NCBI GenBank assembly: GCA_030696455.1
Contig: JAUYSH010000074.1
Location: 1 to 64,000, forward strand
Origin: Elusimicrobiota bacterium
Lineage (GTDB): Bacteria > Elusimicrobiota > Elusimicrobia > UBA1565 > UBA9628
DNA length: 64,000 nucleotides
Reading direction: 5' to 3'
Numbering within the stretch: position 1 is the first letter of the stretch; each line of letters opens with the position of its first letter. The notes below the pieces were generated by a model. That model did no database searches, was not told where the DNA came from, and saw nothing but the letters and a program-made list of their open reading frames with translations. Of this stretch, positions 7,678 through 40,844 are shown piece after piece. Position numbers and translations under genes: made by a program.

Positions 7678-10600
7678 TTACAGGAAGAGGATGAGCGAGC
7701 CGAGCCCGCCGATCGCCGCGCCCAGGAGGCCGTAGCCGATCACCGCGAAGAACAGCTTGTCCATGTCCAGCTTGGCCTTCTTGATGTGATCGAGGTAGAC
7801 GTACGAACCGACGGCGAACGCGACGAAGCCGGCCGCCGCTCCCAGCGCGAGCCAGCCGATCGCGGCCAGGCCGGCCAGCGACGCCAGCGGCAGCAGCCCG
7901 AGCGACGAGAGCATCCCGCCCGCCGAGCCCTTGGCCTTCTTCGCCGCCTCGATGTGGGCCTTGCGCTTGGCGAGCTCGTCGGCGATCTCCTGGGTGCGCA
8001 GGGAGTCCTTGGCCTTCTTCAAGACCTGGTCGGGGTTGGACTCGACGGCGTCCGTGGTCCCTTTCGCGTCGGCGACCTTGTCGTTGACCGCGCCGTCGAA
8101 GCGGTCGAGGTTGTCCTTGAGGTCCCCGATCTGGAAGCCGCCCTTGAGCTCGGCGATCTGCTTCTGGATGTCGGCGGCCTTGGACTTGGTCAGGCCGGCC
8201 TGGATCTTCGCCAAGGTCTCCTCGCGCTCGGAGAAGAAGCGCGCGCGCTCGTCCTTGATGTCCTCCAGCGCCTTCTCGGAGGAAGCGAGCTGCTGCCGGC
8301 TCGCGGCGACGGACGCCTCGAGGGTCTTCTGGCTGTTGAGCAGGCCCGCGGCCATGATGTCGTTGGCCGGGTCGTTGTCCGACAGGAGCGCGGTGATCGT
8401 CTTGTCGAAGTCGGCGATCTTCGCCTGCTCGCCGGCGATCTGCTGGCGCAGCTTCTCGACCAAGGTCGAGGCCTCCTGCACCTTGCGGTTGTAGACGGGC
8501 TTGGCGTCGTTCAATTGATCGATGAGGCGCTGGGCCAGGATCTCGGGCGTCTCCAGCTTCTTGACGCCCATGCCGAACAGGCCGAGCAGGGCGTTCCACG
8601 CGCGGGCGAGCAGGTTCAGCAGCGGCTTGATCGAGAACGAGGACTTCGGCGCGGAGGCCGCCGGGGCCTCGACGGGCGCGGCGACGACGGAGGAGCCGGC
8701 GGGGGTGGACGCGACCGACGCCACGACGGCGCCGTCCTTCTGATTGGCGCGGATGGTCGCGATCACGCCGATGGAGAGCGCGATGCCGGCCGGGACGAGG
8801 AAGCCGAGGCCGACGCTGAACGCGCCGACCGTCAGGCCGAGCTTGGCGACCGCGAGGGAGGCGGCGCCGCCGATGACGAGCGCGCCGAGGCCGATCACGG
8901 CGAGCTGCCGGCCGAGCCAGCGGCCCTGCTCCGGGGCCATCGCGATGGCGAAGAGGCCGAGCAAGGAGAAGACGGCGGCCGAGATCCACGGGGAGATCAA
9001 GGCGAAGCCGATGCCGATGACCTTGGCGAACAGGCCCAGGGCCCGGCCCTGGGTCACGGCGCCGCCGGCGGCGCCCTTGGCCTTGCGCGCGGCCTCGATG
9101 GCGGCCTTGCGTTTGGCGAGCTCGGCCTCTATCTCTGACGACTTCAGGGAGTCCTTCGCTTTCTTTAATATCTGGTCGGGGTTGCTGTCGACGGAGTCGG
9201 CGGTGCCCTTCGCGTCGGCCACCTTGTCGTTGACCGCGTCCTCGAAGCGGTCCATGTTGTCCTTGAGATCCCCGACCTGGAAGCCGCCCTTGAGCTCGGC
9301 GATCTGCTTCTGGATCTCGGCGGACTTGGACTTGGTCAGGCCGGCCTGGATCTTGGCCAGCATCTCCTCGCGCTCGGAGAAGAAAGAGGCGCGTTCTTCT
9401 TTAATGGATATCAACGTCTTTTCGGAGATCGAGAGCTGTTCCTGGGTCATCAAGGTCGACGCGTCGACCGTCTTCTTTTGGTTGAGCAAAGACTCGGCCA
9501 TGACGTCGTTGAGGGGGTCGCTGTCGGAGAGGATCGCCGTCACGGACCGGTCGAGCTCGGCGGATTGCGCGGTCTGCTTCTCGATCTGCAGGCGGAGCTT
9601 TTCGACGAGGGTCGAGGCCTCCTGAACCTTGCGGTTGTAGATGGGCTTCTGCGCGTTCAGCTGGTCGATGATCCTTTGGGCCATCACCTCGGGCGTCTCC
9701 ATCTTCTTGACGCCGAGGCCGAAGATGCCCAAAGCCGCGTTCCACGCGCGGGCCAGGATATTGCGGAAGGGCTTGGAAACGAGCGCGATCGCGGCGACGA
9801 CCGCGGCGCCGATGCCGAGTTCCAGGATGAGTCCGCCTGCGGCGGTCTTGTCGTCGGCGGCGGGCGTCGCGGGCTTGTCCTTCTTGAAGATGTACTTGAA
9901 CGCCTCGCCGAGCAGGCTCGAGGCCAGCGCGACGCCGCCGAAGACGAGCGCGGCGGTGGTGGAGGCGACGGTGAAGCCGACGTAGCCGGCGAAGGCGACC
10001 GCGGCGACGCCGAGGCCGAAGCCGAGCACGCCGCCGAGGATGGCGATGCCCGCGGTCTTGGCGCCCGAGGTCTTCATGACCTTCTCGGCGAACACGCCCG
10101 CGGCGACGGCGCCGGCGCTGCCCAGGGGGATCACGACGCCCATCACGGAGGAGGCGGCCAGCAGGGCCGCGATCCAGCCGGTGTTGAGCCCGGCCCACAC
10201 GGCCATCGCGACGTTGACGCCGATGCTCACGGCCTTCAGCGCGCCGAAGGCGACGCCGCCGCCGGCCTGGCCCTTGTCCTGCTTCGCCTTCTCGATGGCG
10301 GCCTTGCGCTTGGCGATCTCGTCCTGCACTTCCTGGTTCTTGAGGGAGTCCTTGGCCTTCTTGAGGATCTGGTCGGGGTTGCTGTCGACGGAGTCCGCGG
10401 TGCCCTTGGCGTCGGCCACCTTGTCGTTGACCGCGTCCTCGAAGCGGTCCATGTTGTCCTTGAGATCCCCGACCTGGAAGCCGCCCTTGAGAACGGCGAT
10501 CTGCTTCTGGATGTCCGCCGCCGCGGACTTGGTCAGGCCGGCCTGGATCTTGGCGATGGTCTCCTCGCGCTCGGAGAAGAAGCGCGCGCGCTCTTCTTTA

Positions 10601-11553
10601 ATAGACGCGAGGGTCGCCTCGGCGAGGCCGATCTGCTCGTTGGTGGAGGCGATCGAGGCGCTAAGGGTCTTCTGCTGGTTGATCAGGCCCGAGGCCATGA
10701 CGTCGTTGAGCGGGTCGGAGTCGGAGAGCAGCGCGGTGATGCCCTGCTCGAGCTCGGCGACCTTGGCGGTCGCGCCTTCGACCTGGAGCTTGAGCTTTTC
10801 GACGAGGGTCGAGGCTTCCTGCACCTTGCGGTTGTACACCGGCTTGGCGGCGTTGAGCTGGTCGATGATCCTTTGCGCCATGACTTCGGGCGTTTCCAGC
10901 TTCTTGACGCCGATGCCGAGCATGCCCAAGACGGCGTTCCAGGCGCGCTTGATAAGGCTCACGATCGCGAGTTCGCCGGCGGCGGACGTCTTGGCCGCGG
11001 CCGCGCGCTCGATGGAGACGGGGGACTTGGCGGAGACCGTCTCGGAGCGGGAGAGGCCGGTTCGATTCGCCAGAGGCGAATCGCTCGCGGCGGAGCGGCC
11101 GAGGACCTCGAGGGTCGCGCGGCCTTCGGCCGACGAATTCTCGAAAAGCGCGTTCAAGGCGGCGCCCTTCTCGGCGACGCCGACATTCGCGTCCTGGGAC
11201 TTGATCACGGCCAGGGGCGAGCCCTTGACGGTCGCGGGCAGGGCCTTCGCGGCGGCGGCGACGGGCTTGACGGCGAGCGCGGCGGGGACGGGGGCGAGGG
11301 AGACGGGGGCGGCGATGGGGCTCGGGGCGGCGCTCAGGACCGGCGCGAGCATGACGCCCGGCGCCATCGTCGGCACGTTGAAGGAAGAAGCGCCGGGAAG
11401 GGGGCTGTGAAGCCCGGTGCCGATCGTCGGGGTCACGGAGATTCCCGAGACGGGTCGAGCCAAAGTCTGCGCGGCGGCGGTCAAGGTGAGGTGTCCGGGC
11501 CCGGCCACGAGAACGGCGGCCGACACGATCGAGGCGAGTGACTTCTTGAACAT
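7678..11553 (-). CDS. exported/membrane protein with three tandem PspA/IM30-like coiled-coil modules separated by hydrophobic blocks
   Basis: Signal peptide plus P/A-rich leader; three copies of RAWNALLG(M/L)FG(I/M/L)GVKK(L/M)ETPE(V/I)(M/L)AQR(I/L)IDQLN..KP(V/I)YNRKVQEASTLVEKL...LKDN(M/L)DRF(E/D)(D/G)AVNDKVADAKGT; SD-like ggaggaac. Confidence 0.8.
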   Translation of the reverse strand: MFKKSLASIVSAAVLVAGPGHLTLTAAAQTLARPVSGISVTPTIGTGLHSPLPGASSFNVPTMAPGVMLAPVLSAAPSPIAAPVSLAPVPAALAVKPVAAAAKALPATVKGSPLAVIKSQDANVGVAEKGAALNALFENSSAEGRATLEVLGRSAASDSPLANRTGLSRSETVSAKSPVSIERAAAAKTSAAGELAIVSLIKRAWNAVLGMLGIGVKKLETPEVMAQRIIDQLNAAKPVYNRKVQEASTLVEKLKLQVEGATAKVAELEQGITALLSDSDPLNDVMASGLINQQKTLSASIASTNEQIGLAEATLASIKEERARFFSEREETIAKIQAGLTKSAAADIQKQIAVLKGGFQVGDLKDNMDRFEDAVNDKVADAKGTADSVDSNPDQILKKAKDSLKNQEVQDEIAKRKAAIEKAKQDKGQAGGGVAFGALKAVSIGVNVAMAVWAGLNTGWIAALLAASSVMGVVIPLGSAGAVAAGVFAEKVMKTSGAKTAGIAILGGVLGFGLGVAAVAFAGYVGFTVASTTAALVFGGVALASSLLGEAFKYIFKKDKPATPAADDKTAAGGLILELGIGAAVVAAIALVSKPFRNILARAWNAALGIFGLGVKKMETPEVMAQRIIDQLNAQKPIYNRKVQEASTLVEKLRLQIEKQTAQSAELDRSVTAILSDSDPLNDVMAESLLNQKKTVDASTLMTQEQLSISEKTLISIKEERASFFSEREEMLAKIQAGLTKSKSAEIQKQIAELKGGFQVGDLKDNMDRFEDAVNDKVADAKGTADSVDSNPDQILKKAKDSLKSSEIEAELAKRKAAIEAARKAKGAAGGAVTQGRALGLFAKVIGIGFALISPWISAAVFSLLGLFAIAMAPEQGRWLGRQLAVIGLGALVIGGAASLAVAKLGLTVGAFSVGLGFLVPAGIALSIGVIATIRANQKDGAVVASVASTPAGSSVVAAPVEAPAASAPKSSFSIKPLLNLLARAWNALLGLFGMGVKKLETPEILAQRLIDQLNDAKPVYNRKVQEASTLVEKLRQQIAGEQAKIADFDKTITALLSDNDPANDIMAAGLLNSQKTLEASVAASRQQLASSEKALEDIKDERARFFSEREETLAKIQAGLTKSKAADIQKQIAELKGGFQIGDLKDNLDRFDGAVNDKVADAKGTTDAVESNPDQVLKKAKDSLRTQEIADELAKRKAHIEAAKKAKGSAGGMLSSLGLLPLASLAGLAAIGWLALGAAAGFVAFAVGSYVYLDHIKKAKLDMDKLFFAVIGYGLLGAAIGGLGSLILFL
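7918..8615 (-). repeat. PspA-like module 3 (approximate bounds)
   Basis: LARAWNALLGLFGMGVKKLETPEILAQRLID ... RKAHIEAAKKAKGSAGG. Confidence 0.8.
9060..9757 (-). repeat. PspA-like module 2 (approximate bounds)
   Basis: ARAWNAALGIFGLGVKKMETPEVMAQRIID ... RKAAIEAARKAKGAAGG. Confidence 0.8.
10260..10960 (-). repeat. PspA-like module 1 (approximate bounds)
   Basis: KRAWNAVLGMLGIGVKKLETPEVMAQRIID ... RKAAIEKAKQDKGQAGG; long stretches nucleotide-identical to module 2. Confidence 0.8.
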
Positions 11554-11655: not shown

Positions 11656-13101
11656 CTAGGAAATCTGGGACCCTGGCACCGGTGTCGTGGGCCCCGAGGC
11701 GAGGCGGGCGGCGACTTCGTGGGCATGGAGATGGCCGACCACGACGTGGATGGAGCGCGCTCCCGAGGCGGCGGCGCCGGCGGCGACGGCGTCGGCGATG
11801 GCGCGGGAACGAACGGAGACCGGATCGGCCGTCGCGCCCAGGGGCTGGGGCAATTCGAGCCCTCTTAAGACCTCGAGATCGGGCTTCGCGGTGAAGAAGT
11901 GACGGGCCTCGTCGGCGTACTGCTCGGCGATGTCCTCGAGGCCCTCGCCGCGGGCGCCTTCGGCGAGCAGGCGGCGCTTCCAGGCCATCAAGGGAAGCCC
12001 GCCCGAGAGCACGAGCCAAGCGAGAGCGCCCGTCAACGGCAGGAGGACCCAGGCGAAAACCGACGCGGGGGAGGCCAGCGTCCAGGCGAGGACGGCCAAC
12101 GCCGAGCCGGGGGCGACGGCCCAGTCGACGGCGCGCTTCAGGAACAGCGACGCGCGGGAGTGGCCCGGCGCGGCGGGGACGACGGCGGCGGGAGAGCCGG
12201 AGGCGGCGGCGTGATCGAGGGTCTCCAGGCCCGCCTTGTATCCATAATAAGCGGGGAGGTTCTGCTCGGAGTACAGCGCGTGGCCGGCGGCGACGGCGCT
12301 TCGGATCGTGGACAGCACCGCGCCGCGGCGCGGAGGGCCGTACTTGCCGTGGGCGACGCCGTGGACGAAGTAGGTGACGCCGTCGCGCTCCACCTTCAAG
12401 GCGGGGACGCGGAAGGTCTTGTCGACCGCGAACGCGGGAGCGACGGCGGAGGAGGTCTTGCGCCAGAGGCGGGTCAATAAGAAGCGGAACTCGTCTTCTC
12501 GAGAAACGGCAAGGGCGGATTCCTTGGAGCCGAGGACGCCTAACGCGGATAGACGGGACGCGGCGTCGGACGGGGACTGGGAATCGGAGAGAGCCTGGCC
12601 GAGAACGGCGGGGGCGACGCCGCGGGAGAGGAGTTCGGTTGAGGTGGGGAGGGAGCCGTCGAAGAGGGCGTCGAACTGAACGGACGCGGATTCCTCCGGG
12701 ACGGCGGCGCTCTGCGCGGAAACCGGAGCTTGCCGCGAGGACTTCCATGCGGCGACGGTTTTCGCCGCTTCGCGGCGGACGTCCTCGGCTTTCGAGGCCG
12801 CCGGCGTGACCGAAAACGACAACGTTAACGGCGACGGATTGTTAACGGCAACGGAAGGGTGCGCCAGGACAGGCAGGACAACGGCATTCGGCGTGGGGGA
12901 GATGGACGGCGACAGAGAGGGAGATAGCGACATGGACATCGACGGCAACGGCATGGAGGACTCGTTCAGACGGGTCATTCCGACGACCGGTGTTGAAGGC
13001 GCCGCCGGGGCGTTACGGATTATGCCGACTCGTACCTGCGCCGCGGCTGGCGCCGCGGCGGACAGAATCAATGAGAGGGCAAGAGTAAATCGGTTATCCA
13101 C
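11656..13101 (-). CDS. leader-bearing secreted/membrane protein with TraB/TIKI-like C-terminal region
   Basis: GTG at 13101 gives VDNRFTLALSLILSAAAPAAAQ; YFVHGVAHGKYGPP...ALYSEQNLPAYYGYK and C-term VVVGHLHAHEVAARL; two hydrophobic helices. Confidence 0.6.
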   Translation of the reverse strand: MDNRFTLALSLILSAAAPAAAQVRVGIIRNAPAAPSTPVVGMTRLNESSMPLPSMSMSLSPSLSPSISPTPNAVVLPVLAHPSVAVNNPSPLTLSFSVTPAASKAEDVRREAAKTVAAWKSSRQAPVSAQSAAVPEESASVQFDALFDGSLPTSTELLSRGVAPAVLGQALSDSQSPSDAASRLSALGVLGSKESALAVSREDEFRFLLTRLWRKTSSAVAPAFAVDKTFRVPALKVERDGVTYFVHGVAHGKYGPPRRGAVLSTIRSAVAAGHALYSEQNLPAYYGYKAGLETLDHAAASGSPAAVVPAAPGHSRASLFLKRAVDWAVAPGSALAVLAWTLASPASVFAWVLLPLTGALAWLVLSGGLPLMAWKRRLLAEGARGEGLEDIAEQYADEARHFFTAKPDLEVLRGLELPQPLGATADPVSVRSRAIADAVAAGAAASGARSIHVVVGHLHAHEVAARLASGPTTPVPGSQIS

Positions 13102-13127
13102 GGACTTCCAACGTTGAAAGTCCGTGG
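13098..13127. promoter_or_regulatory. 10-bp inverted repeat overlapping the GTG start of the TraB-like gene
   Basis: ccacggactt - 10 nt - aagtccgtgg; start codon (13099-13101) inside one arm. Confidence 0.6.
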
Positions 13128-13151
13128 CCGGTGTTTTGGTGGATATTTTTT

Positions 13152-16100
13152 TTACCAACCCGATGAACCGCCACCCGAGCTTGAACCGCCCCAACTTGAG
13201 CCGCCGCCGCTGGAGCCGCCGGAGGAGCGGCGAGAATCTTCCTCGCTGCGGCGGCGGCGGTCGTCCTCTTCCTGCTGGCGGCGTCGGCGCGCCTCTTCTT
13301 GACGCCGGCGCTCCTCTTCTTCCTCCCGCCTTCGGCGGGAGACTTCGGCCTCGGCGACTTGTATCGCTGAAATTGCCGCGCTGCGCGCGGCTTCCGCGTG
13401 ACGGATCGCGGTCTCGTAATCACCGTTGTTGAGCGAGGCCTTCGCCGAGTTTAAATTCCCTGAGCCGGGGGAGCCGGGAACGGACACTCCATAGGAACCG
13501 GTCCAGTTCGTGGCCTCCCGCACCTTCGACGCGGCGCTCGATATCTTTTCCGTCGCGCGGGCGGCGGCGGCTAATTCGCCTTTGAGCGACGCGGCGACTT
13601 GCGCGGCCTGGCTCGTGATCCGGTCCGCTTCGCGGTCGATCGTGGGCCATTCGCCGTGAGACGCATCCGACGCGGCTAAGGCGGAGGTGTAGGCGGACTT
13701 GAGACCGGCAAGCTCCCTTAATGCGCTGGTGATCGCCGGGCTGTCGGAGATCCCGTCCGACTGCGAGTCCCGGGCGAGGCGAGCCGCGGAATCAAGCTGC
13801 GTTTCGGCCGCCTTCAGGCTGCGCACGACTTCGTTGTAGGCGTCGCGGTCGTTGTTCACCTTGACCCAGAGCGAGTCCAGGCCCGCGGACACCGCCGCGA
13901 TCGACGCGGCGGCCTTGAAAGGATCGCCTTTCTTCATGTCGGCCGCGGCGCGGGCCGAGGAGAGCGCCTTGACGGACGTTTCGTAGGACTTGATCGTGTC
14001 CCGCATCGTGCGCTTGTCGTCGGGGATCTCGGTCTTCCAGGCGCGGGCCTTGGCCTCGAGCGTCTCGAGGAAGGCGCCGTTGTCGATCACGGCCTTGTCG
14101 AGGCGCGCGCGCTTGGCGGAGATCTCGTCGAGGCGGCCCTGGGCGATCTCCTCGTGGGCCTTGGCCTGGTCGAGCAAGGCCGCGGCCTCGAGGACCTTGG
14201 CCTCGCGGAAGGAGCGCACGGCCTTCTCGCGCTTGGACTTGGCGGCCTCGACGGCGACCGAGGCCTCGTCGATGTTGTCCTCGATCGTGCCGTTGGCGTT
14301 CGGGTGGGAGAAGTCGCCCGAGGCGAGACCCAAAACGGAGGCCGCGAAGTCGCGCTTGATCGTCTTGAGGACCTCGGCGCGCTCGGGGAGGAGGGCGTCG
14401 AGGCGTTCGGCCTCGGCGATGCGGCCGGCGACGTCGGACGCCTGCTCCTTCAGCGCCATATCAGTAGCGGCGACGATGGCGTTCGCCTGGCCGATGAGGT
14501 CCGCGCCGAGCTTCTGGGAGGCTTCCGCTTCGGCGAGCCTTCCGTCGCCGAGCTTTGAAGAAGCCTCGTCGAGCGCCACGGAGGCGGCGGTCAGGCGCTC
14601 GGTCGGGTCGTTCTGCGCTTCGCGCAGGACTTCGGAGGCCTCGAGGCCGAGGACGGAGGCGGTCCGCGCGCGCGCGGCGTCGACCGCCGCGGCCGACTTG
14701 ACGGCGTCGGCGCGCGAGGCGGCGATGCGGCCGAGGCCGTTCTTGGCCTTGGCCAGGTTCGTCGTGTGCTCCGCGTAGGCGGCCGTCAAAGCCGCCAGCC
14801 CCAAGGCCCCGTCGTTCTTGAGGAGGGAGGAGGCGAGCTCGGACGCGCTCTTGTCGAGCGCGGCGCGGCTGCCGGCGATCCACTGGGTCCCGACCGAGGC
14901 GGCGGCGAGCGCCGCGACGATGGGGTCGGTCACGGCGAGCTCGTCCTTGCGCATGGACAGCGCCAGCTCGGCGAGGGACTTGGCGTCGGAGGCCAGGCGC
15001 TCGGCGAGCGCGCCCTGGCCCTTCATCGCCCCGACGGGGTTCTTCGCGGCCTTGCCGCGCGCGGCGGCCAGGGTCTCGCGGGCCTGGGGAAGTATCGCGG
15101 CGGCGAGCGCCTCGATCTTGAAGAAGGCGCCGGCGGCGGCCTGCGAGGCCTTTTTCTCCGCGGCGGCGATCGCCGCTTCGGTCGCGTCGAACGCCGCGCC
15201 GTAGCCCGTGGACGCCTTCTCGATCTCGTCGAGGGCGGAGACGGCGGATTTAGACGTCGCGTTGAACTTGGCCATCACCGACTCGAAATTCTCCGAGACC
15301 GGCGCGTAATCCTTCGCCTCGCCGTACAGGTCGCCGCGCCAGTCGCTCGCCTTCTCGAACAAGGCGTCGAAGCCGTCCTCGGGCTTGAAGGTGAGCGGCT
15401 CGGTCGCGAGCATCTTCTCCGCCTGGAGGTAGCGCGAGGGCCAAAGCTGGTTGACGAGCCAGCCCAGGGTCATCGCCTTGGGGCGCACGAGGGCGGTCGC
15501 GCGGTCGTGGATGCTGCGAGCCATCGCGAGGTACAGCTTCGCGCGCCCGGCGTCCTTGCGGACCGAGGAGGCGGCGGCGGCGGTCTCCTCCTCCCAGCCG
15601 CGGGAAGCCGCGCCGGTGATGGGCCCGACGTAAACGTCCATGCGCTTGTCGAGCTCGTCGATGACCGCGTCGAGCTTCGTCTCGAGGATGCCGTCCCATT
15701 TCTGGAGCTCGGCCTCCGCCTTGCCGCGCGCCTTGCGGGCGCGCCAGTTGAGGAAGGCGCTGCCGCCGAGGGTCCCCAAGCCGAGCAGGACGAGGAAGAT
15801 CAAGGTCAGCATCGCGTTGCGGCTCGCGGCGGCGTCGGCGTCGGCGATGGTGCGCTCGGCGTTTGCGAGCGCGGACTTGGCGCTTTGCAGCCGCGACGCC
15901 CACGTCGAGGCGCCGAGCTCATGGGCCTCGCGGGCCTCGCGCAGGGACTGCTTGGCGGTGACGAGATCGGTGGCGGCGGAGCCGGCGCGCTCGCGGCCCT
16001 CGAGCTCTGAGAGCACGGACTCCGAGCCGGCGAGCTGATCGGCCCCGGCGGCGTGCTCGTTGAGGGCGGTCTGCACGCGGCGGACCTCGGCGGCGACGGA

Positions 16101-17795
16101 ATCGGCGGCGGACTTCGCGCCCGACGGGTTGGAGGCCACCGCAGACTCGGCGGAGGCGAGCCTCTCGCGCAGCGCGCGCAGGTCGGGGCGGGCGAGGTCG
16201 CCGGTCGCCTTGGGGTGGGCCTTGAGGAACGAGCCGGAGGCGCGCTCGAGAGCGTCCACCTCCGCCCGGACGGAGGCGATCATGGACTTGCCCGAGTCGT
16301 AGCTCGACTGATAGCTCGACATCGAGGAGGAGGCGGATCGCGCCGACGAGGTCACCGCCGCGGCGAGGCGGGCGGCCTCGGCGTGGGACTTTCCGGCGAG
16401 GGCCTTCTCGGCCGAGGCGAGCTGGCGGCCCAGCCCGGCGAGGTCGACGGCGCCGACGGTCGCGGCGGCGGCGGGATGGGCGCGCGCGAAGGCGGCGCGG
16501 GTCCGGGCGAGCTCCTCGAGCGAGGTCTTCGCCGAGGCGACCGAGGACTTCGCGTTCTGCGAGGCGGAGGCGATCGAGGTGTGGAGGCGAGCATCGATGT
16601 TGGTGACCGTCTCCTTGGCCGCGCCCATGATGTCGCCGCCGGCGCGCAGGCGGGCCTTCGCCCACTGGTCGAGGTTGCCGGGGAACTCGCGCTCGCCGTC
16701 GAGGCCGTTGACGCGCTGGGCCTCGGAGTTGCGCAAGAAGAGCTTGCGCTGCTCCATGGTGATGACGAGGATGGACCCGTCCGACAACCCCGTTTCAGTG
16801 TTTATTCGGGAAGAGAAGCCATCTTTCTTGAATATGCCCTGCCCCGCCCCGTACTCGACCGCGTCGTTGTCGCGGTGGGTGCGGCCCTCGGCGTCGCGGT
16901 AGGTCATGCCCGCGTTGCTCTGCACGATGATCACGGTCCAGTGCTTGCCCTCGAGCCAAGCGGCGAGCTGGCGCTGGGAGCCGGCGTCGAGGCCGGGGTT
17001 GCCGATGACGATCACCTTCGTCGCCGGGGTCCACTTCGCGATGGCGTCGTTGATGTCGGCGGCCTGCACGACCTGGACCTGCTGCTGTTGCGCGCCGATC
17101 TGAGCCATCATCGTCGTCGCGGGGACGTTGGGAAGTATGAGGGACTGCTGGGCGAGCGCGGGCCCGGCGACCGACATCGTCAAGGTGACGGCCATCATCG
17201 CGCCGACCGTCGCGCGCTTGAGCGCGTTCCAGGCCCGGCCGGGCGCGGCGAGCTTGGCGGGCTTCGACGCCGGGGCGGGGGAGGCGGCGACGGCGAAGGG
17301 CTGGGGGGCGCGCTCGCCGAGGGCGGCGAACTCAGCGGCCACGGTCTTGAGCGCGGCGGAGGCTTGGGCGGAGCCGGCGGTCCGCTCGGAGAAAGCTTCG
17401 ACGGCGGCCTCCAGCCGGGCGATCTCGGGCTCGCCGAGAGCTCTGACCGCCTCTGCCCGGACGGCGGGCGCCACGGGGGCCGCGATGAGCGCGCGGACAT
17501 AGCCGCCGGCGACGGTCGGGTTGGCGGCCAAGGCGCGCAGGCTCTCGGGGCGGACATCGGCCGCCTCGAGGAAAGCGATGATCGGAACGGCTCCGCCCGT
17601 GAGCGCGCCCGTCAGGCCGGGAACGCCGCCGGGCAGGCCGGGCAAGGCCGCGTTCAGCCCCTGGCTCGCCGCGGCGGCGCCGGCGGTGTTGAGCTGTCCT
17701 CCCTTGCCGGCGTTGGCGGCTTCCTGCACCTGGGCGGCCGCGGGGCCGGCGGCCAGAAATAGAGCGATACAAAGGGAGAGGGCGTGCTTGATCAT
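13152..17795 (-). CDS. very large TPM-domain-like membrane protein with long Ala-rich coiled coils and Gly/Ser/Trp C-terminal tail
   Basis: ATG 17795 (MIKHALSLCIALFLAAGPAAAQ); N-terminal alpha/beta region; TM MLTLIFLVLLGLGTLGGSAFL; tail SGGSSGGGSSWGGSSSGGGSSGW as in many TPM/YgcG proteins. Confidence 0.65.
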   Translation of the reverse strand: MIKHALSLCIALFLAAGPAAAQVQEAANAGKGGQLNTAGAAAASQGLNAALPGLPGGVPGLTGALTGGAVPIIAFLEAADVRPESLRALAANPTVAGGYVRALIAAPVAPAVRAEAVRALGEPEIARLEAAVEAFSERTAGSAQASAALKTVAAEFAALGERAPQPFAVAASPAPASKPAKLAAPGRAWNALKRATVGAMMAVTLTMSVAGPALAQQSLILPNVPATTMMAQIGAQQQQVQVVQAADINDAIAKWTPATKVIVIGNPGLDAGSQRQLAAWLEGKHWTVIIVQSNAGMTYRDAEGRTHRDNDAVEYGAGQGIFKKDGFSSRINTETGLSDGSILVITMEQRKLFLRNSEAQRVNGLDGEREFPGNLDQWAKARLRAGGDIMGAAKETVTNIDARLHTSIASASQNAKSSVASAKTSLEELARTRAAFARAHPAAAATVGAVDLAGLGRQLASAEKALAGKSHAEAARLAAAVTSSARSASSSMSSYQSSYDSGKSMIASVRAEVDALERASGSFLKAHPKATGDLARPDLRALRERLASAESAVASNPSGAKSAADSVAAEVRRVQTALNEHAAGADQLAGSESVLSELEGRERAGSAATDLVTAKQSLREAREAHELGASTWASRLQSAKSALANAERTIADADAAASRNAMLTLIFLVLLGLGTLGGSAFLNWRARKARGKAEAELQKWDGILETKLDAVIDELDKRMDVYVGPITGAASRGWEEETAAAASSVRKDAGRAKLYLAMARSIHDRATALVRPKAMTLGWLVNQLWPSRYLQAEKMLATEPLTFKPEDGFDALFEKASDWRGDLYGEAKDYAPVSENFESVMAKFNATSKSAVSALDEIEKASTGYGAAFDATEAAIAAAEKKASQAAAGAFFKIEALAAAILPQARETLAAARGKAAKNPVGAMKGQGALAERLASDAKSLAELALSMRKDELAVTDPIVAALAAASVGTQWIAGSRAALDKSASELASSLLKNDGALGLAALTAAYAEHTTNLAKAKNGLGRIAASRADAVKSAAAVDAARARTASVLGLEASEVLREAQNDPTERLTAASVALDEASSKLGDGRLAEAEASQKLGADLIGQANAIVAATDMALKEQASDVAGRIAEAERLDALLPERAEVLKTIKRDFAASVLGLASGDFSHPNANGTIEDNIDEASVAVEAAKSKREKAVRSFREAKVLEAAALLDQAKAHEEIAQGRLDEISAKRARLDKAVIDNGAFLETLEAKARAWKTEIPDDKRTMRDTIKSYETSVKALSSARAAADMKKGDPFKAAASIAAVSAGLDSLWVKVNNDRDAYNEVVRSLKAAETQLDSAARLARDSQSDGISDSPAITSALRELAGLKSAYTSALAASDASHGEWPTIDREADRITSQAAQVAASLKGELAAAARATEKISSAASKVREATNWTGSYGVSVPGSPGSGNLNSAKASLNNGDYETAIRHAEAARSAAISAIQVAEAEVSRRRREEEEERRRQEEARRRRQQEEDDRRRRSEEDSRRSSGGSSGGGSSWGGSSSGGGSSGW

Positions 17796-17866
17796 AGCCC
17801 GCAGTATAACCGGAGAGGGGGGTCCGGCGAATGAGCCATCGGGGCCCAAAGCCGCCAGGTAAGGGG

Positions 17867-17905: not shown

Positions 17906-17972
17906 GAAAGACTAACGGTTTCGGGCCCGTAGGTCCCATAAGAATGATTATTTCTTTGGATAAAATTGCGTG

Positions 17973-20954
17973 ATGACGAAGTTTGTCGGTATGGCCGTGG
18001 CATTATCGTTGCCGTCATCGTCCATGGCTCAAGTGAAAGCCGGTCTTCCTTCGAGTCCTCGACAAGTCTCTTTGCCGTTCCAATCCGTCGGTTCCAATTT
18101 ATATTCCCCTTCCGTCTTAATCTCACACGTCGCGTTGACCGTTCCCACTTTGACCTCCGTTCCTTCTATAATGCCCTCGCCGGTCGCCGTTCCCATCGCC
18201 GCCGCCCCCATCATGAAGAACCCCCAAAAAATCACCGCGGCCAAGCCCGCTCTCGACGCCCTGACCGCCGGTCTCGCCAAGACCCCCGCTGCCGCGGCGG
18301 AAACCTTGAACCTCCATTTCGACGCCGCGAAGGGACATGCCTGCGCCGCTTGCGCCGGCGACGAGGTCCCCTCCGGCGCGCCGTCGGCTCAAGCCCCGCT
18401 GCCGCCGTCCTCCTCCGGCCGCCTGTCGAAGACCGTGCTCCCGAGCAAATACGACCTCCGCCTGAGGCTCGACCCGGAGAACGCCGCGTTTTGGGGCCGC
18501 GTCAAGATTTCTCTGGAATCGAAATCCCCCGTCAAACAGCTCGTCCTTCATGCCCTCGACTTGTCGTTGACGTCCGTCGTCGTCGCCGGCCGCCGTCTCG
18601 ATCCCTCGAAGATCGTCATCGACGCCAAGGCCGAGACCGTGACGTTGCTCCTGGATAAGCCGTTGAAAGGCCGTGCCGACGTCGAGATCGAGTACTCGGG
18701 AAAGATGAACGAGTTGATGCGCGGTCTGTACAAGTCTCGCGGTAAGAATGGAGCGAAGGACGAGGCGTGGGCGTTCACCCATCTCGAGCCGACGCACGCC
18801 AGACGGGTCCTGCCGTCTTTTGATGAGCCGGCATTCAAAGCGATTTTTAAACTGACGCTCGACGTTCCGTCCGGCCTGACGCCGCTCTCCAACATGCCGC
18901 CGGTCTCGGACACGATCCTCGACGGCCGCCGGACCGTCGTTTTTCAAGACACCCCGAAGATGTCCTCCTATCTGTTGGCCGTCTTCGCCGCCCGCCTCGA
19001 GTCCCGGTCTCGCAAGGTGGGCAAAACCGTCCTCACCGTCTGGGCCGCCCCGGAGCAGATCGCGCAGGCCGATTTCGCCCTCGACGCTGGTGAAAAGGCG
19101 CTCGCCTACCTGAACAAGTATTTCGGCGTGCCGTACATGCTGCCCAAGCTCGACATGGTCGCCGCGCCCGACTTCGCCTCCGGGGCGATGGAGAACTGGG
19201 GCGCGATCCTTTATCGCGATACGTCCCTGCTCATCGATCCGAGATTGTCCTCCGACGCCGCCAAGCGCCGCGTCGCCGAGGTCGTCAGCCACGAGATCGT
19301 GCACCAGTGGTTCGGCAACCTCGTGACGATGGGCTGGTGGAACGACCTGTGGCTCAACGAGGCCTTCGCGACCTGGCTCGCCTACAAGGTCGTCGACTCC
19401 TGGAAGCCGGCGTGGAAGGTCTGGGACGAGTTCGACCAGGGGAAGCGCTCGCCCTTGTCGATCGACGCCCTGCCGGGCACGCGCCCCGTGCGCTCCGACG
19501 CCGCCACGCCGGCCGAGATCCAGGCGCAGTTCGATCCCATGTCGTATCAGAAGGGCGGGGCGCTGCTGAGGATGATCGAGAGGTATATCGGTGAAGGGGC
19601 TTTCCGCAAGGGCGTGCAGGGCTACATGAGGCGCTTCGCGTATAAGAACGCGGAAGCGAAGGATCTCGCGAAGGAGTTCGAGCGCGCGTCGGGCAAGCCC
19701 GTGCGGAAGATGATGGATAAGTGGCTGAGCCAAGGGGGAGTACCTGTCGTGTCGGTTACGGCCGAAGGCCGGGTGGTCACTTTGACGCAGGAACGATTCT
19801 CCGCTTTCAACCTGAAGGCCGACACCCGATGGTCCATCCCCGTCGTGGTGCGCTATCGTCTCAAAGGAGAAAAGAAAACGCGCGTCGTAACGACCCTTTT
19901 GGAAACGGCAACGAAGAGTGTGACCTTGCCGGGCGCGGGCGAAATACTTTGGGTGTACCCGAACGCGAACGAGACCGGGTATTACCGCTTCGCGCTGTCC
20001 CCCGAGCTGTTGTCCGCGGCGCTGTCGCGCCGCGGGGACCTGTCACCGGTCGAGAGAGCGGGGCTTCTGAACAATTCATGGGCCCAAGTCCGCGCCGGAC
20101 AAATGCCGGTCGATTCTTTTCTCGATTCGCTCGCCGCGTTCCGCGGCGACGCTTCGCGTCTGATCGTCGAGGACGCGTTCGGGTACCTGAAGACGATCCG
20201 CCAGGAATTGGCCGGATCCGACGCCGAGCGCGACGCGCTCGGCGTTTTTGCGGCGGATTTCTTCGGGCCGCTCGAAAAACAGCTCGGGTGGGATAAGAAG
20301 AAAGGCGAGAGCCAGGAAAGCACTCTCACCCGCCCGACGGTCCTCAACGCGCTCGCCCTTCTCGCGCCGAAGGCGCTCGACCAGGACCAGGTCTCGGCGC
20401 GGCTTAAAAAATACCTCGCCGACCCGTCCTCGATCGACTCATCCCTCTCCGCCGTCATTCTGACCGCCGCTGCGCGGCGGAATGATCCGGCGTTGTTCGA
20501 GGCGTTCCGAACGAGGCTCGCCGCGCCCAAGACGCCCGAGCAGAAAAGCCTGATGCTGCGCGCCCTCGCGGAATTCTCCGAGCCGGCGCTTCTCGACCGC
20601 TATCTCGCGATGACTTTGTCTGACGAGATCCGCGCGCAGGACGCCTGGATGCCCTATATCTGGATGCTGTCGAATCCCGCGACGCGCGAGCGCTCGTGGA
20701 CGTTCGTGAAGGCGAACTGGAAGGCGCTGTCGGCCAAGCTCGGGCCCCGCGGCGGCACGCGCGTGATCGGCGCCGCCGGCGGCCTCGTCTCGCCCGCGCT
20801 CAAGGCCGAGGTCGAGGCCTTCTTCCGCGCCCCCGAGAACGAGATCGAGATGGCGCGCAAGACCCTCGACCAGACCCTCGAGTCCATCGGCCTCGGCCTG
20901 CGCTTCAAGGAAGGCCAGACCTCTTCATTCGCGGGCTGGTCCTCCAGGCGTTGA
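17973..20954 (+). CDS. M1 family aminopeptidase with long P/S-rich N-terminal leader
   Basis: GAMENWG, HEIVHQWFGNLVTMGWWNDLWLNEAFA; TAAAAT 6 nt upstream of ATG 17973. Confidence 0.9.
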   Translation: MTKFVGMAVALSLPSSSMAQVKAGLPSSPRQVSLPFQSVGSNLYSPSVLISHVALTVPTLTSVPSIMPSPVAVPIAAAPIMKNPQKITAAKPALDALTAGLAKTPAAAAETLNLHFDAAKGHACAACAGDEVPSGAPSAQAPLPPSSSGRLSKTVLPSKYDLRLRLDPENAAFWGRVKISLESKSPVKQLVLHALDLSLTSVVVAGRRLDPSKIVIDAKAETVTLLLDKPLKGRADVEIEYSGKMNELMRGLYKSRGKNGAKDEAWAFTHLEPTHARRVLPSFDEPAFKAIFKLTLDVPSGLTPLSNMPPVSDTILDGRRTVVFQDTPKMSSYLLAVFAARLESRSRKVGKTVLTVWAAPEQIAQADFALDAGEKALAYLNKYFGVPYMLPKLDMVAAPDFASGAMENWGAILYRDTSLLIDPRLSSDAAKRRVAEVVSHEIVHQWFGNLVTMGWWNDLWLNEAFATWLAYKVVDSWKPAWKVWDEFDQGKRSPLSIDALPGTRPVRSDAATPAEIQAQFDPMSYQKGGALLRMIERYIGEGAFRKGVQGYMRRFAYKNAEAKDLAKEFERASGKPVRKMMDKWLSQGGVPVVSVTAEGRVVTLTQERFSAFNLKADTRWSIPVVVRYRLKGEKKTRVVTTLLETATKSVTLPGAGEILWVYPNANETGYYRFALSPELLSAALSRRGDLSPVERAGLLNNSWAQVRAGQMPVDSFLDSLAAFRGDASRLIVEDAFGYLKTIRQELAGSDAERDALGVFAADFFGPLEKQLGWDKKKGESQESTLTRPTVLNALALLAPKALDQDQVSARLKKYLADPSSIDSSLSAVILTAAARRNDPALFEAFRTRLAAPKTPEQKSLMLRALAEFSEPALLDRYLAMTLSDEIRAQDAWMPYIWMLSNPATRERSWTFVKANWKALSAKLGPRGGTRVIGAAGGLVSPALKAEVEAFFRAPENEIEMARKTLDQTLESIGLGLRFKEGQTSSFAGWSSRR

Positions 20955-22078
20955 TGATGGTGTCAGGCATATCGTTCTTTGCATTGCTGCTCCTGCTCGG
21001 AGCGCCTGCGCCCGCCCAGGTCCGGACCTCGCTTCGGACGAGCGCCGCTCCGGTCCCCAGCTTCGCGGCTTCGGCGCTGATCTCACCCGCCGGGCTCCCG
21101 TCCCCGGTCCTCGCTCTCTCCGTTCCGGCCTTGGCACCGGCCTTGGCGGCCCCCTCGGTCGCGCTCCCCGCGTCCGTCGCCGTGCCCGCGTCCCTGCGTC
21201 CCGTCGCGGCCCCCGCTTCTCCCGAGCGCCCGAACCCGCTCGGGCAGCTGCGGGGCGTCCTCACCGATTGGCTCAAGCCCGACGTCTCGGCCGAAGACGC
21301 CTCCGCCGCGGCGCCAGTCACCGCCTACGTCCTCGACCTCGACGGCAACGCCTTCGGCCCGGGCTTCCCGACCAAGATCATCCTGTTCCGGAAGGGCGGC
21401 GATCGGGAGCTTCCGGTTCCCACGGCGCATTTCGCGGTCATCGAGAAGAGCATCGGCGAGGATTTCGCCTACGGCGGCGCCAACCTCAAGGACTATGAGC
21501 TTCGCGGCGACGCGTCGTTCCGGGAGTTCTTCGGCCCGCAGTTCACGGCCGACCTGAAGTACGCCGTCGAGAACCTGCCCGCCTCCCAGTGGCAGGGTCC
21601 GAGCTGGGGGGCGCTGGTGCGCGCGCTCGGCGACCCGGTTCTCGCCGCTCATACCTATGTGCTGACCGCGCGCCAGCATACCTCCGAGCAGCTCCTCGAC
21701 GGCTTCCGCTATCTCCAGGCCGCCGGCTACATCCGCTATCTGCCGAAGGTCGAGAACCTCCACGGCGTCGGGGGGACCCATCGCACCGCGCAGCGCAAGG
21801 CCGAGCTCATGGCGGAGTTCGTCGATTCCCTGCAAGCGGCGCCTCTCGGCGCGGACGGCGGGCGCCACGCGATCGGCTTTTCCGACGACACCTGGGCCAA
21901 CCACGAGAGGATGCGCGACTCGTTGAGCGCGATCCTGCGCCGCGAGCCGGGGCGCTGGAGCAAGGTCAAGATCGTGCTGTTCTTCACCGGCACGAACGAG
22001 GTCGCCCGGCGGCCCGAGGCGATCGTGCTCCTCCCCGGCGGCGGAACCCGGCCGTACGTTCCCGGCGAGCCGCGCTGA
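20954..22078 (+). CDS. secreted HAD-superfamily-like protein with P/A-rich leader
   Basis: ATGA overlap with M1 gene; signal peptide; YVLDLDGN, LTARQHTSE, GFSDDTWANHERM. Confidence 0.65.
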   Translation: MMVSGISFFALLLLLGAPAPAQVRTSLRTSAAPVPSFAASALISPAGLPSPVLALSVPALAPALAAPSVALPASVAVPASLRPVAAPASPERPNPLGQLRGVLTDWLKPDVSAEDASAAAPVTAYVLDLDGNAFGPGFPTKIILFRKGGDRELPVPTAHFAVIEKSIGEDFAYGGANLKDYELRGDASFREFFGPQFTADLKYAVENLPASQWQGPSWGALVRALGDPVLAAHTYVLTARQHTSEQLLDGFRYLQAAGYIRYLPKVENLHGVGGTHRTAQRKAELMAEFVDSLQAAPLGADGGRHAIGFSDDTWANHERMRDSLSAILRREPGRWSKVKIVLFFTGTNEVARRPEAIVLLPGGGTRPYVPGEPR

Positions 22079-38573: not shown

Positions 38574-40844
38574 TTACAGGTGGGTGGAAAGGATCGAGTT
38601 CGGCCCGTGGTGGTCGCCGGCGTTCGGCTTGGCGTGCGCGGGCGGCGCGGGCGGCTCCGGCGGCGGGGGAGCCTTGCGGGACTCCTTGCTGAAGGACAGG
38701 AAGGGGGCGGCCAGGCGCAGCAGGCCCATCACGCCGGTCGCGATCGCGGCGATCGTCAGCGAGGTCGCGATCGAGATGTCCTTGAGGACGAAGCCGTAGA
38801 CGTAGGTCGAGAGGATCGCGGCGGCGATGCCGAGAAGGGACTGCGCGGCCAGGATCTTGTTGACGTTCTCGTCCTTGTGGCGGCCGAGCGTCTTCTGGTA
38901 AAGGCCCGAGATCGCGATGCCGACGAAGCCGACGGAGAGCGCCTGCAGGCCGTACAGCGCCACCGCGCCGAGCATGGTCGGGGTGTTGATCATCAGCAGG
39001 AATAGCGGAGCCTCCAACGCGGCCAGAATGAAAAACGGGATCGTCAGCGCCTCGTCCGTCTTGAAGCCGAACTTCTGGAACAGCCGCGTCAGCGGCTTGA
39101 TGAGCAGGGAGGCCACGATGGAGCCGACGCTCGCCATCACCATCATCATCGCGAAATTTCCCATCGGCGTCGCGGCCAGCGACCTGAGGAACCACCCGAG
39201 AACCGGCACGTTCATGATCGCGCCCATCGAGCCGGGGTTGCTCGCCACGAGGCCCTCGATATACTCGGGGAGCACGTTGAAGACGAGGGGGTCCGAGAAC
39301 AGCGATGTCACCATCGACATCAGCAGGAGCGTGCGCAGGAAGCGGTCCTTGAAGACGAGCTTCGTGCCGTCCTTGATCGACGACCAGAGGCTCTTGAGCG
39401 TGCCGCCGATCCCCTTCGAGGCGGGGGCCGCCGCTTCTTCGCCGGGCTTCCCGGCCGACTCGGCCTTTTTGGGGCCGCCGATGATCTTGATCGAGGCGTA
39501 CACCAAAGCGGCCAACGCGATGGCGCCGGCGTAGATCGAGTAGATCACGGCGCCGCCGACGCCGGTCTTGTCCATCACCGGGCCGATCTGCGCGATCTGG
39601 CCCGCGATCACGGGAGCGATGATCGCGAACAGCGCGGCGACGAAGGTCAGGATCGAGTTGGCCTTGGTGCGCTCCTCGCTGGTGACGGTCGAGTCGCCCA
39701 TGATGCGCGTCGTCGCCGCGCCCTCGAAGGTCACGGCGATGCCTTGGAAGAAGGACTGCAGGGCGACGAGGCCCAGGAACACCCAGAGCGCCCCGGTGAC
39801 GCTGAGCAGGCCGGTCGCGAAGAACAGGCCGGCGACGCCCGCGAGCGTGGCGGCGCGGACCATCATGGAGCGGACGAGCCATTTTTTAGGACCGTCATCC
39901 GCGATGCCGCGCGTGAAGAGGGGGATGGTCGCGTAGCTCACGCCCTGCGCCACCCAGTGCGCGATGCGGGCCAGCGAGCGATTGGAGCGGATCATCGACT
40001 TGAGGGTCTCTTCGTTGGCGGCGCGCGCGTCGTGGTTCTCGGTGAGGGAGTTGCGGGTGATCGCGGAGATCAGGTAGGGGAGGCCGACGACGTACATCTG
40101 GTAGCCGAAGAGGAAGATGGAGTAGCCCGCGACGTAGCGCCAGAAGGACTTGTTGCGCTCGGGGTCCTTGAAGACCAAAGTGATGCCGGACTTTTTGGGG
40201 GAAGGGGGGGCGGCTTTCTCGTCGACGGAGGGAGCGGATTCCGTGGCCGTGCCGAGGAGTTTCGAGGAGAGGCCGGAAGGCGTGAGGGCGGCCATGCGGC
40301 CGCCGAGGGGAGCGAGGGAGGAGCCGGAGCGGGACGGGGAGGCGAGGGTCTCGGAGACGAGCGTGGAGAATTGGGTCGAGGCTTTGGAGCTGGCCGAATC
40401 GCCGGAGGCCTTTGATAAACCTTCAACGGCTTTCGCGGCTGCGGCTTGGGCTGAAGCTAACGCCGCGGCCGTTGCGAGAACGGGCTTCGGGGCGGCCGCT
40501 GATTTGGAGGCCTGAACGGAAAACGGCTTGAGGGCCGATGGGGTCGGGGAGACGGCAACGGCAATGTTTGGAGCGATTCCCAGAGAGACCGGCGTCAGGT
40601 TGGGGGAGATGGACGGCGAAGCAAGGGAAGGAGTTAACGACAACGACGTTAACGGCAACGTATTGGGGATCGTGCCGAAGACCGGCGTTCCGGGAAGCGA
40701 GGGGTTGGAGCTTGCGCCTGCGGCGCTGTATGCGCCGATGGACGAGGGAACCGAGACGCGGACGGATTGGACTTGGGCGAGGGCGGGTGAGGAGCCTAAC
40801 GATATGGACAGAAGGAGAGCAAGCGTCTGTCGCATGAGCCTCAT
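38574..40844 (-). CDS. MFS-like polytopic membrane transporter with ~200-aa secreted-type P/S/A-rich N-terminal leader
   Basis: Signal peptide MRLMRQTLALLLSISLGSSPALAQ, leader LPLTSLSLTPSLASPSISPNLTP, then ~12 TM helices. Confidence 0.75.
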   Translation of the reverse strand: MRLMRQTLALLLSISLGSSPALAQVQSVRVSVPSSIGAYSAAGASSNPSLPGTPVFGTIPNTLPLTSLSLTPSLASPSISPNLTPVSLGIAPNIAVAVSPTPSALKPFSVQASKSAAAPKPVLATAAALASAQAAAAKAVEGLSKASGDSASSKASTQFSTLVSETLASPSRSGSSLAPLGGRMAALTPSGLSSKLLGTATESAPSVDEKAAPPSPKKSGITLVFKDPERNKSFWRYVAGYSIFLFGYQMYVVGLPYLISAITRNSLTENHDARAANEETLKSMIRSNRSLARIAHWVAQGVSYATIPLFTRGIADDGPKKWLVRSMMVRAATLAGVAGLFFATGLLSVTGALWVFLGLVALQSFFQGIAVTFEGAATTRIMGDSTVTSEERTKANSILTFVAALFAIIAPVIAGQIAQIGPVMDKTGVGGAVIYSIYAGAIALAALVYASIKIIGGPKKAESAGKPGEEAAAPASKGIGGTLKSLWSSIKDGTKLVFKDRFLRTLLLMSMVTSLFSDPLVFNVLPEYIEGLVASNPGSMGAIMNVPVLGWFLRSLAATPMGNFAMMMVMASVGSIVASLLIKPLTRLFQKFGFKTDEALTIPFFILAALEAPLFLLMINTPTMLGAVALYGLQALSVGFVGIAISGLYQKTLGRHKDENVNKILAAQSLLGIAAAILSTYVYGFVLKDISIATSLTIAAIATGVMGLLRLAAPFLSFSKESRKAPPPPEPPAPPAHAKPNAGDHHGPNSILSTHL

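Follow-up and report, generated by a model that had tools for sequence, protein, structure and literature searches.

The window analyzed here is the whole stretch of 64,000 nucleotides at positions 1 to 64,000 (forward strand) of contig JAUYSH010000074.1, from the Elusimicrobiota bacterium draft assembly GCA_030696455.1. On its minus strand, from 11553 down to 7678, lies a gene (the array) for a 1291-residue protein, open throughout and beginning with ATG, in which three PspA-like modules alternate with hydrophobic blocks behind a signal peptide and a long leader. An earlier sequence-only reading had described this open reading frame, with its signal peptide, leader, and three copies of about 230 residues, and that description stands; the strand, which it had left out, is minus.

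Architecture of the array protein

The N-terminus (MFKKSLASIVSAAVLVAGPGHLTLTAAAQ followed by TLARP) has a charged n-region, then a hydrophobic core and an AxA site. The signal peptide covers residues 1-28 (MFKKSLASIVSAAVLVAGPGHLTLTAAA followed by Q; 11470-11553, this and all array coordinates below being on the minus strand), and an end of the same AxA-Q type is found in the orthologs of genomes G010, G036, G006, and G047 as well as on other exported proteins of the window. The leader, rich in Pro/Ala/Val/Ser, extends over ~170 residues (29-196; 10966-11469) and is followed by the first of three modules of ~232 residues each (module 1, residues 197-428, 10270-10965; module 2, 9073-9771; module 3, 7927-8625), the start of which is marked by RAWNA at residues 203, 601, and 983. 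Module 1 is 75% identical to module 2 and 72% identical to module 3. Hydrophobic segments had been noted after each module, and they are seen by hydropathy, by a transmembrane (TM) scan, and as helices in a low-confidence full-chain AlphaFold2 (AF2) model: membrane block A (~4 helices, residues 432-570, 9844-10260), segment B immediately N-terminal to the first helix, alpha0, of module 2 (residues 571-593, 9775-9843), membrane block C (~4 helices, residues 834-940, 8734-9054), and a C-terminal block (residues 1211-1291, 7681-7923). The TM scan was run with approximate scale parameters, and these helix counts are uncertain. A counterpart of segment B lies N-terminal to module 1 in G036 and N-terminal to the modules in G006.

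A search with the leader over 58 relatives found it in 10 genomes, all of one genus, and several of the matches were to proteins without a PspA module. Signal peptide and leader together (window 10966-11553) are also carried by quite different proteins of the genus (L047:3130-6435, L057:3755-6868, L057:6872-7669, and L056:4228-6579), and to judge from these sequences the leader behaves as if it were a movable export part. Within the window, a signal peptide ending in AxAQ and followed by a long low-complexity stretch rich in Pro/Ala/Val/Ser also occurs at 11659-13047, 13155-17741, 21008-22075, and 38577-40784, and an M1 peptidase (17970-20954) has an N-terminal start similar to this pattern. 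A D/K-rich junction ending in GG (DDKGxAGG, KKDGANGG) was observed 21 times, compared with 1.9 in shuffles (window 7681-11553; L047, L052, L054, L055), positioned just N-terminal to nearly every hydrophobic block, including blocks that are mutually unlike.

Identity of the modules

Searched against Pfam, the whole protein matched PF04012 (PspA_IM30) in three stretches (72.2 bits, E 6.1e-20; cut-off 33.9 bits), and the second-best family reached E 0.002. Each module alone matches this profile end to end, over positions 2-216 of 220 for module 1 (38.9 bits, E 9.2e-10), 1-216 for module 2 (32.1 bits, E 1.1e-7), and 2-216 for module 3 (32.5 bits, E 8.5e-8); modules 2 and 3 score 379.7 and 383.1 bits with the A1 profile, and reversed-module controls gave no relevant Pfam match. 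Aligned by hhalign with three canonical single-domain PspAs of Elusimicrobiota, the module profile gave a probability of 96% over 182 columns. The hydrophobic moments of alpha0 in the modules are 0.44-0.48, compared with 0.49 for Escherichia coli PspA, and the turn that follows alpha0 (helix 2-22) reads ETPE, of the E-D/T-P type. NCBIfam returned nothing relevant. A 1188-residue frame of the same genome (C69), which scored 21.5 bits against PF04012 at positions 36-142, part of the hairpin only, was set aside as a probable generic coiled coil.

The AF2 model of a single module, for which the alignment left out the canonical Elusimicrobiota PspAs, has helices at 2-22, 26-81, 85-143, 146-161, 168-189, and 198-231, in the order alpha0 to alpha5 of PspA/Vipp1. 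The predicted local distance difference test (pLDDT) values are mostly 80-89 in helices 26-81 and 85-143, the long alpha1/alpha2-3 hairpin, and mostly 43-79 in the three helices of the alpha4/alpha5 region, through which PspA polymers make their contacts. In a Foldseek search of 350,542 PDB chains, Vipp1 occupied ranks 1-3 and Vipp1 or PspA many of those that followed (best E 1.6e-3), with the module hairpin superposed on 4whe at a root-mean-square deviation of 2.6 A over 121 columns. The full-chain model shows these hairpins in all three modules (pLDDT about 70-85 there).

Because a PDB search by sequence alone gave marginal PspA/Vipp1 matches (4whe, E 0.093; 8qbr, E 0.083), the case for PspA rests on Pfam, hhalign, and the fold search. 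Some figures weigh against it: modules 2 and 3 taken singly fall slightly below the curated PF04012 cut-off, the Foldseek matches are all weaker than E 1e-3, and mean pLDDT is just 73.9 for the module and 50.9 overall for the full chain, which makes the latter model uninformative on module packing and too low in confidence for topology. We nevertheless consider it very probable that the module is a member of the PspA fold (PspA/IM30, of the bacterial endosomal sorting complex required for transport III, or ESCRT-III, superfamily). The PspA/Vipp1-like layout had been proposed from the sequence together with profile searches and AlphaFold models as checks, and these agree with it: PF04012 spans each module, Vipp1 and PspA rank first in the fold search, the single module is predicted with the PspA helix order (the full chain at low confidence), and profile and structure searches, rather than coming back without PspA similarity, point to PspA/Vipp1.

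Relatives, selection, and the conserved locus

A module profile searched over 341 genomes of the phylum Elusimicrobiota found matches in seven members of this genus, in G036 of the same order, and in G047 of the same class; a match in G242 was marginal and partial (E 3e-4), within a protein that by eye looks different. The repeated architecture, which the sequence-only reading had suggested seeking in related genomes, is found there with two, three, or four modules in the same genus or order. The window protein has three; G010, a complete circular chromosome of the same genus (CP096137.1; GTDB order UBA1565; described as diderm), has four, the last beyond a frame break; G016 probably has four across two contigs, G003 at least three, and G036 two. 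These counts should be read with caution, as contigs of the other draft genomes often break inside the repeated array gene. In G006, a 1933-residue open frame (L047:9697-15495) contains three PspA-like modules, nearly identical to one another yet diverged, and has additional soluble domains between the membrane blocks; these modules are not recognized by PF04012 in Pfam, having diverged past detection. The G047 gene, pieced together from two contigs with an overlap of exactly 119 bases, has a signal peptide and one module, with no membrane blocks. A 469-residue frame of G018 (L048:3964-5370) combines the leader with a shortened module (about 124 hairpin residues) and is apparently a decayed or trimmed copy.

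In a tree of the modules, first modules cluster with first and third with third, the three G006 copies cluster together, and copies 2 and 4 of G010 are nearly identical, a grouping which indicates that the genus has had the array for a long time and that independent re-expansion appears to have followed. Between species of the genus, the ratio of nonsynonymous to synonymous substitution rates (dN/dS) is 0.19-0.32 for the modules, 0.39-0.49 for the leader, and 0.77-0.87 for membrane block A. The low values in the modules, set against the near-unconstrained block A, suggest that the modules carry function and that the block requires little beyond hydrophobicity. Since several further genomes, the complete chromosome among them, share this architecture, and the modules are under purifying selection, the three-module array is neither a chance arrangement nor a product of assembly. 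Five further genomes of the order carry canonical PspA (about 250 residues, without a signal peptide), one of them only as a contig-end fragment, and among the genomes of the order surveyed for it none was seen with both canonical PspA and the exported array. In G028, G040, and G045 (L020, L021, L027), the canonical gene stands directly behind that of an exported protein read by eye as VWA-like.

Two genes lie upstream of the array on the same strand: next to it, one for an exported protein of about 500 (here 512) residues (11656-13194), and before that, one for a 1565-residue membrane protein (13152-17849) with a signal peptide, an alpha/beta domain that is weakly TPM-like, one TM helix, a long coiled coil, and a Gly/Ser-rich tail. 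Both adjoin the array in G003, G006, G010, G016, G036, and G047. Among 56 relatives, the 1565-residue gene is confined to array-bearing genomes and G043, where the contig breaks off shortly after a third gene begins, likewise with a signal peptide. The 512-residue neighbor has no match in Pfam or NCBIfam, and a likeness to TraB noted by eye was rejected because no profile backs it. We take the shape of the 1565-residue protein (signal peptide, alpha/beta domain, TM helix, coiled coil, and a GSSGGGSSW-like end) to resemble that of TPM proteins. The TPM_phosphatase profile (PF04536) gave no match in the window gene and none above the cut-off in its genome; the sole hint is a weak match in one of five orthologs (E 0.037), and a TPM assignment was not reached. 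Such a domain, if real, would fit the PspA-TPM association known from the main text of one large survey (PMC11237479), as well as Bacillus subtilis YdjH, a TPM protein that binds and anchors PspA (PMC8581546). By this analogy, the two co-inherited neighbors are likely membrane partners of the array.

Membrane side, proposed mechanism, and known systems

The N-terminus is, judging by its signal peptide, exported with high probability. For the modules we lean toward the periplasmic side, and an arrangement with modules on mixed sides seems unlikely. In the window protein, the TM scan gave no clear membrane helix in the stretch that separates the signal peptide from module 1; in G047 the amphipathic alpha0 is the sole hydrophobic segment besides the signal peptide, and this single exported module without membrane blocks implies that module export is independent of the blocks. 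Charge and helix number tell against a shared periplasmic location: the module-side loops have 3, 5, and 2 Lys/Arg residues, compared with 0 and 0 in those of the far side, and under the positive-inside rule this points to a cytoplasmic module side; segment B, if it spans the membrane, would make the number of helices separating modules 1 and 2 odd and so put them on opposite sides. If B merely dips into the membrane, all modules would lie on one side. The periplasm-facing placement of the sequence-only reading is thus made plausible by the signal peptide and opposed by the loop charges. Were the modules to face the cytoplasm, anchored by the hydrophobic stretch at the N-terminus or by the B segments, the protein would be a membrane-tethered form of ordinary cytosolic PspA. 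In addition to the loop charges, this is favored by G036, in which a hydrophobic segment between signal peptide and module 1 would bring module 1 back to the cytoplasm; but signal peptide ends of the AxA-Q type recur in the family and on secreted enzymes of the window, G047 has no hydrophobic segment beyond its signal peptide and alpha0, and in the window protein no clear membrane helix follows the signal peptide ahead of module 1, so that we hold this arrangement to be doubtful, if less so than mixed sides.

The chain could also be a precursor, in which a protease cuts at the D/K-rich junction before the membrane blocks and frees single PspA modules. What suggests this are the 21 occurrences of the junction in the family, where 1.9 are expected, nearly all of them directly before hydrophobic blocks and even before unlike ones; however, shared descent among some of the copies inflates the count, G036 lacks the motif as written, and the motif could be a plain flexible linker, so that processing appears improbable. 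We give the same low weight to a rapidly shuffling family of leader-bearing exported envelope proteins in this genus, in which the PspA module would be interchangeable and its remodeling activity lost, as in a filament or surface protein, for example. Proteins without PspA modules do carry this leader and these membrane blocks, and the G006 modules have diverged beyond PF04012, but selection constrains the modules and hardly touches the membrane block, and the gene neighbors are constant. Very improbable, finally, are generic coiled coils that came to look like PspA through convergence: there are weak matches to the MAP65 and LAMB1 families, and SMC and designed bundles are also among the Foldseek matches, yet PF04012 leads the next family in E-value by roughly 3 to 7 orders of magnitude when modules are searched singly and by roughly 16 when the whole protein is, its match covers the modules from end to end, alpha0 and alpha5 included, and reversed modules gave no relevant match.

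In the current picture, PspA and Vipp1, the bacterial ESCRT-III proteins, act as soluble subunits and polymerize on membranes from the cytosolic or stromal side. Our preferred reading is that a PspA/IM30 protein has been turned into a single exported, membrane-anchored chain of three protomers, and we would put the full scaffold mechanism that follows at about an even chance. The alpha0 helix of each module would be laid on the membrane, and the hairpins of adjacent modules and chains would line up next to each other, alpha5 passing across the tip of a nearby hairpin, as it does in polymers of Vipp1/PspA (PMC8281802). Membrane blocks would act as non-specific anchors and spacers that keep two to four protomers at the membrane surface, favoring a curved or flat scaffold by which an envelope membrane may be stabilized or reshaped, and the two neighbors would likely serve as membrane partners, as the TPM protein YdjH does for PspA in B. 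subtilis. Being covalently linked and anchored, the protomers would reach a higher local concentration and the polymer would stay at the membrane, and the repeated expansion in copy number fits selection for linked protomers. More tentatively, the array may form an ESCRT-III-type remodeling polymer on the periplasmic face, its protomers already joined covalently in groups of two to four and self-anchored, needing no cytosolic pool or same-compartment ATPase. If this is true, the ESCRT-III fold is able to serve as a fixed scaffold and to work on a different membrane face, and the array would be a natural single-chain multimer for probing subunit contacts and a candidate envelope-shaping system of uncultured diderm Elusimicrobiota.

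Among known systems, BdpA of Shewanella oneidensis (PMC8687657) is likewise a coiled-coil protein, and a part in shaping envelope membrane extensions and vesicles has been proposed for it, but it is BAR-like, not PspA, and the likeness is limited to the proposed role. In the B. subtilis pspA-ydjGHI operon (PMC8581546), too, PspA is encoded together with a membrane protein (YdjH), but as a separate cytosolic protein, whereas here it is exported with its own anchors, and the TPM match of the neighbor is weak. The sequence-only reading had called known PspA proteins single-module, which is too strong: according to the main text of the survey, tandem PspA_IM30 repeats are part of the <2% of homologs, and fused paralogs occur in cyanobacteria (PMC11237479). 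These share with the array more than one PspA_IM30 domain per chain, so repetition by itself is not new, but that main text describes no signal peptide or interleaved membrane blocks for them. In the open-licence papers and the survey's main text we found no description of an exported PspA interleaved with membrane blocks, which is no proof of absence, and in the open-licence literature no paper treating Elusimicrobiota together with PspA. With PspA/IM30/Vipp1 (PF04012), the modules share the full-length profile match, the alpha0-alpha5 order, the E-T/D-P turn after alpha0, the hairpin length, and an F/E-rich alpha4 stretch. Unlike usual PspA, which is single-domain and cytosolic (as in G028, G040, and G045, with one module and ~220-250 residues), the window protein is exported, bears a leader, and consists of three modules joined by membrane blocks.

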